Source of the DNA: a candidate division WOR-3 bacterium
GTDB taxonomy: Bacteria; Hydrothermota; Hydrothermia; UBA1063
Reading direction: 5' to 3'
DNA length: 64,000 nt
Assembly: GCA_039803545.1 (NCBI GenBank)
Contig: JBDRYS010000002.1
Coordinates: 132,385 to 196,384 of the forward strand
Shown here: piece by piece, positions 54,557-58,034 of the stretch
How positions within the stretch are numbered: the stretch's first letter is position 1
How the letters are laid out: every line of letters starts with the position of its first letter
Notes under the pieces: generated by a model
Databases searched by the model: none
Seen by the model: only the letters and a program-made list of their open reading frames with translations
Told to the model about the DNA's origin: nothing
Program-made: the position numbers and the translations under genes

Positions 54557-54585
54557 TTGACAATACGAGATAGAGTTCCTATAAT
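54557..54585 (+). promoter_or_regulatory. Consensus promoter of the polyamine operon
   Basis: TTGACA (54557-54562), a 17-nt spacer and TATAAT (54580-54585): a perfect sigma-70 type match, starting 2 nt after the preceding stop codon. The transcript should begin near 54592. Confidence 0.9.
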
Positions 54586-54608
54586 TTAACACTACCTGAG
54601 GTGAGTTT

Positions 54609-54662
54609 ATGGAGAGTGAAAGTGAAAGAATTGTGGGGATTTTATACGTTGATAATTGGTGA
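54609..54662 (+). CDS. 17-residue leader peptide upstream of speD (putative)
   Basis: An ATG at 54609 with a good GAGGTGA ribosome site (54598-54604) opens a 17-codon frame ending TGA at 54660-54662. The peptide is MESESERIVGILYVDNW. It lies wholly in the leader of the polyamine operon, 10 nt before the speD ribosome site. Eukaryotic AdoMet decarboxylase mRNAs carry a polyamine-sensing upstream ORF; a comparable leader in bacteria would be notable. It could also be a chance frame. Confidence 0.5.
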   Translation: MESESERIVGILYVDNW

Positions 54663-54689
54663 ATTTAACAAAAAAGGAGGCAGGAAGAA

Positions 54690-55091
54690 TTGAAAAAATC
54701 CCTGGGTGTGCATATCATACTTGAGTTCTTTGGTTGTGATCCCAATACCCTCACCAGAAGAGAGTATGTAGAAAGAGTAATGTTAGAAGCCGCTCAAAAG
54801 GCCAACACTCATTCCATTGGAACCTTCTTCCATCAGTTCAAACCCTATGGAGTGTCCGGCGTGATTATAATCGAAGAATCCCATATCTCCATTCATACAT
54901 GGCCTGAACATGGTTTTGCAGCTATAGACTTCTTCTACTGCTCTGATGAAGTAGACCCTGAAAAAGCCATCGAGGTTCTGATAGAGGGCTTCAAACCTAC
55001 AAGGATCTCAAGAGTTGAATTTGAGAGAGGCAGTTTTAAGGAACTCAACGCCCAGGAGACAAAGCCTGAGCAGGTTCTCAGCATAGCTTGA
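54690..55091 (+). CDS. speD: S-adenosylmethionine decarboxylase proenzyme (prokaryotic class)
   Basis: 133 residues from a TTG at 54690 with AAAGGAGG 9 nt upstream. It makes decarboxylated AdoMet, the aminopropyl donor. Self-cleavage occurs before Ser64 in IIEESHISIHTWPE, giving the pyruvoyl group. His69 and Cys84 (IDFFYC) are the processing and proton-donor residues. Length fits the small bacterial/archaeal SpeH class. It begins the polyamine operon, behind a consensus promoter and a possible leader peptide. Confidence 0.94.
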   Translation: MKKSLGVHIILEFFGCDPNTLTRREYVERVMLEAAQKANTHSIGTFFHQFKPYGVSGVIIIEESHISIHTWPEHGFAAIDFFYCSDEVDPEKAIEVLIEGFKPTRISRVEFERGSFKELNAQETKPEQVLSIA

Positions 55092-55108
55092 GTTTAGAAG
55101 GACTATGC

Positions 55109-55987
55109 ATGAAGATAGTTATCAACAATACGATCTTAGAGGAGTTCGCCCCGGGGATAAAGGTTCAATACACATTAAAGAACAAAATTTATGAAGGGCA
55201 ATCGGAGTTTCAACATATTTTGATCGCGGAAATAGAAGGTTTCGGAAAATCGATTTTTTTAAATGGTGTGCTTCAATCAGCACAAATTGACGAATACGTC
55301 TATCATGAACTTCTTGTACACCCCGCCTTTTACCTCCACAGAAATCCTGAAAAGGTACTAATCTTTGGTGGAGGTGAGGGGGCGACTCTAAGGGAAGTTC
55401 TAAAGCACCCTGTAAAAAAGGCGGTGATGGTAGATATCGACAAACAGGTGGTTGAAACCTCAAAACGATACTTACCTGAATGGTCAGACGGTAGTTTCAA
55501 CGATAAACGGGCCGAACTGGTTTTTGATGACGCACGCAAATTTGTTGAACATTGCAACGAAAAGTTTGATATTATCATTTCAGACCTTACAGACCCCTTC
55601 CAGGATGACCTATCTGTGGATTCTTTCACCAAAGAATTTTACAAACTTTGCAAAAAAATTTTAAAAGAAGATGGTATCCTCGTGGTACAAGGAGGCTCTC
55701 TCGACCCTCATTACCTTAAATACTATCTCAAAGTCGTGGACAATCTCAAGGAATCCTTTAAATTCATAACCTCTTACGGGTATTTTATCTTTTCTTTTAT
55801 GAGCGTTTGGGGGTTCATAATTGCATCAGACACAGACTACTCAAAAATTCAACCCGACGAAGAAAAATTTAAGAGGGTAAAGTTAAGATTCTTTGAGCCT
55901 TTTTTATTCCCTTTAATGGAAACTCAGACGAACCATTATATCCGAAAGGAGATTGATAATGGAAAAGCCCCAGTATGGCAAACTTGA
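55109..55987 (+). CDS. Aminopropyltransferase, thermospermine-synthase-like
   Basis: 292 residues from the ATG at 55109 (AGAAGGA upstream); an earlier TTG at 55088 is less likely. AdoMet-like binding core IFGGGEGATLREVLKHPVKK and VMVDIDKQVVETSKRYL, then SDLTDPFQDD and GSFNDKRAEL. This spacing, and the TDP segment rather than SDPxGP, resembles plant ACL5 thermospermine synthase and its bacterial homologues. It probably adds an aminopropyl group to spermidine or another longer amine. Its 3' end overlaps the arginine decarboxylase start by 29 nt. Confidence 0.83.
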   Translation: MKIVINNTILEEFAPGIKVQYTLKNKIYEGQSEFQHILIAEIEGFGKSIFLNGVLQSAQIDEYVYHELLVHPAFYLHRNPEKVLIFGGGEGATLREVLKHPVKKAVMVDIDKQVVETSKRYLPEWSDGSFNDKRAELVFDDARKFVEHCNEKFDIIISDLTDPFQDDLSVDSFTKEFYKLCKKILKEDGILVVQGGSLDPHYLKYYLKVVDNLKESFKFITSYGYFIFSFMSVWGFIIASDTDYSKIQPDEEKFKRVKLRFFEPFLFPLMETQTNHYIRKEIDNGKAPVWQT

Positions 55988-56435
55988 ACATTTCACTTTA
56001 GTTGGTGGCGTCGGGGAGGGTTCAACCTTCCTTAATGCCTTCGATGCGGCGCTTATGTCTGCGCAAGTCGGACATTATAACTTAGTAAGGGTATCCAGTA
56101 TACTCCCTCCTAAGGCAATCCAAACCGACAAAGTAGGCCTTCCACCTGGCTCGATTCTCCCCATAGCTTACGGCTACATCTACTCAGCCGAAAAGGGGCA
56201 AAGAATCACTGCAGCAGTTTCTATAGGCATACCAGAAGATCCAAACAGCATAGGCGTAATCATGGAATATTCGGGTGACCTTGACGAAAACGACGCCAGG
56301 GAATTCGTAATCAATATGGCGCGCGAAGCCATGGAAAAGAGGGGAATCAAAATTAAGGAAATCCTTTACAAGGTAGTTTCCACAAAAGTTAACGAACAAA
56401 AGGCCTGCGTCTTCGCAGGTGTAGCTCTGTGGTAA
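55959..56435 (+). CDS. pdaD: Pyruvoyl-dependent arginine decarboxylase
   Basis: 158 residues from the ATG at 55959 with GAAAGGAGA upstream. It decarboxylates arginine to agmatine, the entry to polyamine synthesis. The proenzyme cleavage site is the Ser-Ser pair 46-47 in LVRVSSILPP. LPPGSILPIAYG and MEYSGDLDENDAREFV are also family-typical. This archaeal-type enzyme occurs in some thermophilic bacteria and is about a quarter the length of PLP-dependent SpeA. It is flanked on both sides by aminopropyltransferase genes. Confidence 0.93.
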   Translation: MEKPQYGKLEHFTLVGGVGEGSTFLNAFDAALMSAQVGHYNLVRVSSILPPKAIQTDKVGLPPGSILPIAYGYIYSAEKGQRITAAVSIGIPEDPNSIGVIMEYSGDLDENDAREFVINMAREAMEKRGIKIKEILYKVVSTKVNEQKACVFAGVALW

Positions 56436-56440
56436 GCTCT

Positions 56441-57271
56441 ATGGACCTATGGTTTAAAGAGCTCCACGATGCAAGTAGTGGGATAACCTTCAAGGTCAAA
56501 AATTATCTCTACTCTGGGAGATCCCCTTTCCAGAGGATTGATATCTTTGAAGTTGAAACCTACGGTAAAGTCCTGACCCTCGATGGTATGGTGATGGTAA
56601 CAGAAAGAGATGAATTCATCTACCACGAGATGATAACCCATCCCGCCCTCCGGATCCATCCAGATCCTAAAAAGGTTCTCATTATCGGCGGTGGCGATGG
56701 TGGCACTGCAAGAGAAGTCTTAAAGTATAAAGAAGTCGAAAAAGTTGTAATGGTGGAGATAGACAAAGATGTAGTTGAACTTTCAAAGAAATACTTCCCA
56801 ACCATTTCCTGTGCCCTCGAGGATCCCCGCCTTGAGATTAAATACGAAGATGGAGTCAATTTTGTAAGGGAAACGGAGGAAAAATTCGATGTGATGCTAC
56901 TCGATACCTCAGACCCTGTAGGTCCCGCCGAAGTTCTTTATAGAAGAGAATTTTATGAAAATTGCAAAAGAAGCCTTAACAAAAATGGTATTCTGGTGAC
57001 ACAAGCCGAGTCTCCTTGGTCCCAGCTGGAAACCATTAAAAACCTTCTCAAAGAGATAAAAGGTGTCTTCAGTCAAAGCTTGCTTTATCTCGCCCACATC
57101 CCCACTTACCCAGGAGGTCTTTGGTCTTTCCTTATGCTTGGAGAAAATTTTGACATAAACAAAATTCAAAGGCAGACTCCTGAAGGCCTAAAATACTACA
57201 ACGAGGAAATCCACAGGGGCATGACCGCACTTCCGCAATATTTAAAAGAGGTCCTAAATGAGATCCGTTAA
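56441..57271 (+). CDS. speE: Spermidine synthase (polyamine aminopropyltransferase)
   Basis: 276 residues from the ATG at 56441; a GTG at 56429 is an alternative. Classical SpeE motifs: VETYGKVLTLDGMVMVTERD, YHEMITHPAL, IIGGGDGGTAREVLKY, MVEIDKDVVELSKKYFP, and catalytic-site LDTSDPVGPAE. It transfers an aminopropyl group from decarboxylated AdoMet to putrescine, or to agmatine as in Thermus. No ribosome site is evident, so translation is likely coupled to pdaD. Confidence 0.93.
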   Translation: MDLWFKELHDASSGITFKVKNYLYSGRSPFQRIDIFEVETYGKVLTLDGMVMVTERDEFIYHEMITHPALRIHPDPKKVLIIGGGDGGTAREVLKYKEVEKVVMVEIDKDVVELSKKYFPTISCALEDPRLEIKYEDGVNFVRETEEKFDVMLLDTSDPVGPAEVLYRREFYENCKRSLNKNGILVTQAESPWSQLETIKNLLKEIKGVFSQSLLYLAHIPTYPGGLWSFLMLGENFDINKIQRQTPEGLKYYNEEIHRGMTALPQYLKEVLNEIR

Positions 57272-58034
57272 AATTTTAGGATTACCTTACGAAGGTCCGG
57301 AAAATTTCCAGCCCGGTGTTCAACTGGCCCCTGCCCACATTAGGTGGGCTTATGACTCCATAGAGTGGTACAGCATTCACCAAAAGGAGCCCGTTCCAGA
57401 ATTCGAGGACCTTGGTGACTTTTACTTTTATTCCAAAGAAAATCCCGAGGAGTTTGTCAGAAAAGCCTTAAGCTTACTTAACAGGCTAAAACTGGAACCA
57501 CCTTTCATCGCCCTTGGAGGCGATCACTTTGTTACTTATCCCATTATCAAATACCTACATGAGAAAGGAATGGAATTCACGGTTATACACCTTGACGCCC
57601 ACTTAGACAGAAGAGATTCCTTCATGGGTAATAAGCTCTCCCACGCCACCGTTATCAAAAGGGTAGAAGAGATCGTGGGAGAAGATAGGGTCATTACCTT
57701 CGGCTATCGCTCCTTTTTTCCCGAAGAAGATTTAAAAAGAGGAGAACCTTTTAAGGTTTTAGAACCGCTTAAGAAACTTTTAGAAGAAGAAAAGGGTCCT
57801 TTTTACCTCACCCTCGATATTGACGTCCTCGATCCCTCGATTATGCCCGCCGTCTCAAATCCAGAGCCCCTGGGCATTACGTTTAAAGAACTCTTAGAAT
57901 CATTGAAACTCCTCAAGGGAAAACTTTTAGCGATGGACCTTGTGGAACTGGATCCACTCCTTGACCCCACACACAGCAGTGCCATCCTCTGTGCAGAAAT
58001 CCTCAGAGAATCCGTCATAATTCTATCACAATAA
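57258..58034 (+). CDS. speB: Agmatinase-family ureohydrolase
   Basis: 258 residues of the arginase/agmatinase family. The binuclear Mn site is complete: LGGDHFV, VIHLDAHLDRRD, and LTLDIDVLDPS with the final Glu in DLVELDP. It releases urea from agmatine to give putrescine. In Thermus the equivalent acts on N1-aminopropylagmatine to give spermidine directly. Two aminopropyltransferases next door leave both routes open. It overlaps speE by 14 nt. Confidence 0.92.
   Translation: MRSVKILGLPYEGPENFQPGVQLAPAHIRWAYDSIEWYSIHQKEPVPEFEDLGDFYFYSKENPEEFVRKALSLLNRLKLEPPFIALGGDHFVTYPIIKYLHEKGMEFTVIHLDAHLDRRDSFMGNKLSHATVIKRVEEIVGEDRVITFGYRSFFPEEDLKRGEPFKVLEPLKKLLEEEKGPFYLTLDIDVLDPSIMPAVSNPEPLGITFKELLESLKLLKGKLLAMDLVELDPLLDPTHSSAILCAEILRESVIILSQ

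Follow-up and report, generated by a model that had tools for sequence, protein, structure and literature searches.

In mammals, the mRNA of the S-adenosylmethionine decarboxylase gene AMD1 carries a short upstream open reading frame (uORF), and polyamine causes pausing at the stop codon of its peptide, MAGDIS, blocking the downstream start (PMC4505036, PMC13025110). In bacteria, SpeFL and MdtU are leader peptides of polyamine genes (PMC7815308, PMC8429421). A literature search, with most subscription journals outside its reach, did not turn up any description of a leader peptide preceding a bacterial speD. We describe here a candidate for such a peptide, encoded in a 64,000-nt stretch of DNA (the window) from a candidate division WOR-3 bacterium. 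WOR-3/Hydrothermota organisms are known mainly from metagenomes.

The leader ORF and the polyamine operon

A sequence-only reading of the window had pointed to a perfect promoter, a GAGGTGA site and a 17-codon frame before speD, with a translation signal at 54609. All of these are present, and the features of the locus are as follows.

54557..54585, + strand: sigma-70-type promoter TTGACA-17-TATAAT, 12/12 match
54598..54604, + strand: ribosome-binding site of the leader ORF, GAGGTGA
54609..54662, + strand: leader ORF, MESESERIVGILYVDNW, stop TGA, with protein-level selection in the last 8 codons
54636..54662, + strand: conserved C-terminal segment and stop, G-[IL]-L-[YF]-x-D-N-W-stop
54663..54680, + strand: A-rich spacer and speD Shine-Dalgarno sequence, ATTTAACAAAAAAGGAGG
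54690..55091, + strand: speD, S-adenosylmethionine decarboxylase proenzyme, TTG start (TIGR03330, E = 1.2e-41; PF02675)
55088..55987, + strand: speE1, aminopropyltransferase-like, start at 55088 or 55109 (PF01564; NCBIfam just under cut-off)
55953..56435, + strand: pdaD, pyruvoyl-dependent arginine decarboxylase (TIGR00286, E = 9.3e-39)
56429..57271, + strand: speE2, spermidine synthase/polyamine aminopropyltransferase (NF002010/TIGR00417, over cut-off)
57258..58034, + strand: speB-like agmatinase (PF00491, E = 1.6e-52; TIGR01230, E = 3.9e-44, under its cut-off)

The −35 box (TTGACA, 54557-54562) lies 3 nt from the end of the upstream gene, and a 17-nt spacer separates it from the −10 box (TATAAT, 54580-54585). 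The leader begins with ATG at 54609 and comprises 17 codons ending at 54659, followed by TGA at 54660-54662; it is a short ORF with its own ribosome site, placed between the promoter and speD. The speD ribosome site AGGAGG occupies 54675-54680, with 13 nt from the leader stop to GGAGG; the 10 nt given earlier depends on where the site is assumed to start. The leader was rejected as an N-terminal extension or readthrough form of speD because, although its ATG is in frame, two in-frame stops (TGA 54660 and TAA 54666) intervene. In the tabulated leader loci the promoter scores 10 to 12 of 12 in 19 of 20 cases and lies 22–66 nt upstream of the leader ATG. The leader ribosome site in relatives is mostly AGGAGGTG or GGGAGGTG.

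As annotated from their sequences, the operon genes make up the arginine-agmatine-putrescine-spermidine route. Two aminopropyltransferase genes share this one operon (55088-57271); speE1 does not quite reach the spermidine synthase cut-offs, and its product may synthesise another, longer polyamine. The gene order speD-speE1-pdaD-speE2 behind the leader is mostly kept in relatives where it is readable, including the distant genome G048, while in G029 and G012 no pdaD was found within the sequence available behind the leader.

Conservation and distribution of the leader

Relatives were found by a SpeD search, and their upstream DNA was then read on the correct strand. Twenty leaders were tabulated, 18 from WOR-3/Hydrothermota and two from a second phylum. 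As the genomes are related, these counts do not represent independent events. All 20 end in L-[YF]-x-D-N-W-stop, each of L at −6, [YF] at −5, D at −3, N at −2 and W at −1 being present in 20/20; Gly at −8 is found in 19/20, and position −7 is L, I, R, M or F. The leaders are 17–21 residues long, but only the last 8 residues are kept and nothing is ever added past the Trp. The comparison of speD leaders proposed in the sequence-only reading thus finds the frame and its last residues retained in close and distant relatives, across six families of one phylum plus a second phylum, stop position included.

This conservation is at the level of the peptide. Across the 20 leaders the invariant Leu is encoded by five different codons, and Asn and Asp by two each. 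When codon differences were analysed pairwise among 14 representatives, 240 of the 420 differing codons in the last 8 positions were synonymous (57%, 0.571), against a mean of 17% (0.173) in 2,000 column shuffles, none of which (0/2,000) gave as high a value. Pairwise differences in these codons number 184/99/356 at codon positions 1/2/3. Codons −16 to −9 gave no selection signal, with 461/466/468 differences at the three positions. On this codon evidence, with a synonymous excess in the last 8 codons and none further upstream at −16 to −9, selection acts on the C-terminal octapeptide and on its position next to the stop, and the N-terminal half is nearly free. Amino-acid conservation is therefore concentrated near the putative stall site. 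The stops of the 20 leaders, which are related rows, comprise 17 TGA, three TAA and no TAG, while ORFs of at least 150 aa in the window, the only stop-codon background used, have 15 TGA, 32 TAA and 12 TAG. That all leader stops could be read by RF2 is suggestive only.

The ORF is not a product of chance: 19 WOR-3/Hydrothermota genomes, and two from a different phylum, carry a leader ahead of speD. Wherever the region could be read, it is present throughout the window's genus and family and in the related families f2, f6, f8 and f11, and it also occurs in G048 (f19), within the same phylum. Within the phylum, a pattern search of 147 genomes found a single match linked to speD in each genome that bears the leader. 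When genomes of 84,980 species were scanned, 36 motif matches were obtained, 19 of them ahead of speD (17 in WOR-3/Hydrothermota and two, L071 and L084, in the second phylum, which these two genomes make up by themselves in the genome set used). The other 17 were not followed by speD and in most cases lacked a start with a ribosome site; the scan gave no convincing copy beyond the two phyla. The viral contigs scanned gave a single match, attributable to chance, and no such leader was seen in ∼90 speD upstream regions sampled from Nitrospirota, Bacillota and Chloroflexota.

The SpeD tree unites 18 leader-bearing rows in a clade with support 99/64; the row from the other phylum nests within this clade and G048 lies apart, and the leader label requires two changes, compared with 16.8 when labels are shuffled. 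The tree, which is built on few columns and has G048 on a long branch, is compatible with a single ancestral origin followed by losses, with transfer or with a second gain. No leader stands before speD in some genomes whose SpeD is closely related (G142, the sister of the main leader clade, as well as G059 and G130), and control by it is thus not obligatory. G059 (L018) has a AGGAGGTGAG ribosome site before speD at the usual leader position with no ATG behind it, possibly what is left of a lost leader.

Elsewhere in the phylum, families carry different elements before speD, given here as leads. In f20 (L024, L028, L192 and L223, from G050, G056, G062 and G060) an unrelated leader, MC..L.R..LNPLTSD[YF]GG.KECKP-stop, overlaps the speD ATG by 13 nt, its GGAGGT codons carrying the speD ribosome site, and it shows synonymous changes between genomes. 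In three genomes of f3 (L196, L224, L225) the ORF M[KR]GID[IV][SG]KL[SK]EEELLQTRG[WVN]-stop lies ∼40 nt before speD, possibly a third leader type. On the broader reading given below, such unrelated leaders suggest that this kind of control arose more than once. In f27 (L206:150-250, L209, L210) a compact conserved RNA, GGTCTCTGGG[CT]GGCG ... TATGG[TC]AAACC[CT]TTCAA ... CACTTGGGGTGC, lies just before speD; it looks structured, has no Rfam match at E ≤ 1 and is a candidate riboswitch. A second copy in G073 (L231), at a contig end, resembles a variant of the same locus and gives no new gene link. In f9 (L022-L029 except L024 and L028) a tRNA-like sequence ends ∼100 nt before a divergent speD, and no DNW-type leader ORF was found at these loci.

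Proposed arrest at termination and its alternatives

The reading that we favour, and hold to be reasonably probable, is that the product of the 17-codon ORF is a nascent-chain arrest peptide, acting at termination to control the polyamine operon. A ribosome translating the leader would come to hold Gly-x-Leu-Tyr/Phe-x-Asp-Asn-Trp in the upper exit tunnel, adjacent to the peptidyl transferase centre; once the stop codon had entered the A site, the peptide would slow release-factor action. The paused ribosome would extend ∼10–12 nt beyond the stop, reaching or abutting the speD ribosome site, and would keep a second ribosome off speD. If pausing depends on the pathway's end product (spermidine, or a longer polyamine of thermophiles), the result would be feedback repression of speD, and of the rest of the operon by coupling. 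In all tabulated leaders the stop lies 11–21 nt from GGAGG and 22–35 nt from the speD start, which is TTG or GTG (starts set by homology). Given that the footprint of a ribosome reaches about 12 nt past the codon in its A site or under translation (PMC4833913), a ribosome held at the leader stop would abut or overlap the 30S initiation site.

Stalling at the end of the peptide had been suggested earlier as a means to mask or expose the speD site. The arrest-peptide part of that suggestion agrees with the conserved and selected C-terminal end; the part involving mRNA folding is not supported, as no conserved RNA structure was found. Direct steric blocking of speD initiation is simpler and fits better than masking or exposure by an mRNA fold, there being no conserved fold. 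Since strong promoters are kept in 19/20 loci, control probably acts after transcription initiation. The stalling, together with its ligand and the direction of regulation, is inferred, and polyamine as the signal is plausible, judging from the operon. Going further, G-x-L-[YF]-x-D-N-W-stop could define a new family of bacterial arrest peptides, through which the ribosome senses a polyamine at release and turns S-adenosylmethionine decarboxylase off, as a prokaryotic counterpart of the AMD1 uORF; to this broader proposal we give somewhat less than an even chance.

Several alternatives were weighed against repression by arrest. The conservation of the C-terminus is equally compatible with an activating arrest peptide, in which a precursor (agmatine, arginine, ornithine or SAM) stalls the ribosome and keeps Rho or a nuclease off the transcript; this has been proposed in Escherichia coli for SpeFL (ornithine) and MdtU (spermidine), which are both tied to Rho and a stalled ribosome. 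Here, however, the 22–35 nt between leader stop and speD leave no long stretch for Rho loading, whereas the mdtU stop is 106 nt from mdtJ, and no terminator-like site was found in the leader; we regard activation as unlikely. A leader that simply hands ribosomes to speD by termination and reinitiation, with neither arrest nor ligand, would suit the short distance and the TTG/GTG starts, and expression-raising leader genes of such a type have been proposed (PMC4833913). That model permits about 12 nt, however, and needs no conserved peptide, while in these leaders the codons of the last 8 residues change synonymously, so keeping the residues, and the N-terminal half is free, which makes reinitiation quite unlikely. 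Protein-level conservation and a ribosome site of its own would also be expected of a free micropeptide acting in trans, for example by its C-terminus binding SpeD, but with 17–21 residues, of which the last 8 alone are kept and none is added after the Trp, and with one leader per genome, always in cis to speD, we think this very unlikely.

An RNA switch (riboswitch or attenuator hairpin) to which the ORF is incidental would find support in family f2, whose ORF hairpins exceed their synonymous controls in strength (z −1.1 to −3.0). Outside f2, however, synonymous-codon shuffles of each ORF gave z scattered around 0, RNAalifold found 0 consensus pairs in 14 full leaders, an Rfam search of the window gave no match, and it is codon positions 1 and 2 that are conserved and not the third. 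RNA structure was therefore rejected as a general feature of the leaders, the locus shows neither the Rfam match nor the consensus pairs of a spermidine or SAM riboswitch, and an RNA switch is highly improbable. The invariant Trp as last codon could recall attenuation by a ribosome awaiting charged tRNA-Trp. An amino-acid transcription attenuator is nevertheless hardly credible here, with a single Trp codon, no terminator-like site in the leader, no tie to tryptophan genes, and other invariant residues that would be superfluous.

Arrest at termination remains our preferred reading, and the leader is a compact, clade-wide candidate for nascent-peptide control of bacterial S-adenosylmethionine decarboxylase. 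Should the pause depend on polyamine, the same feedback logic would have been reached independently for the same enzyme in bacteria and in eukaryotes. The short motif lends itself directly to toeprinting and cryo-EM.

Comparison with known leader systems

The parallel with eukaryotic AdoMet decarboxylase drawn in the sequence-only reading is apt, although it passes over the bacterial precedents SpeFL and MdtU. The mammalian AMD1 uORF is likewise a short ORF before an S-adenosylmethionine decarboxylase gene, and both peptides have Asp at −3. The MAGDIS sequence is absent here, however, the WOR-3 peptide being different and longer and lying on a bacterial mRNA with two Shine-Dalgarno sites, and its pause is putative.

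SpeFL of E. coli, which senses ornithine, is also a bacterial polyamine-gene leader that ends at its arrest site (putative in our case). Its target is speF, with Rho involved, whereas the WOR-3 leader precedes speD in every case and was not assigned to the SpeFL family, the downstream gene not being an ornithine decarboxylase; SpeFL also inhibits RF1, while the WOR-3-type leaders all stop with TGA or TAA. MdtU, the spermidine-responsive uORF of E. coli mdtJI, is likewise most conserved at its C-terminus and has a polyamine gene downstream (PMC7815308), but it has 34 codons, with its stop 106 nt from the gene, is Rho-dependent and serves an exporter gene. TnaC resembles the arrest proposed here in stalling at termination by inhibition of RF2 (PMC8429421) and differs in its ligand, free tryptophan, its conserved internal Trp and its tryptophanase operon. 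The spermidine riboswitch, a SAM-I variant, exerts cis feedback control of spe genes (PMC10853860), as proposed here, but is a folded RNA aptamer, and none was found at the speD leader. We infer that the WOR-3 leader works in the manner of the AMD1 uORF and of SpeFL and MdtU, but with a motif and a target of its own.
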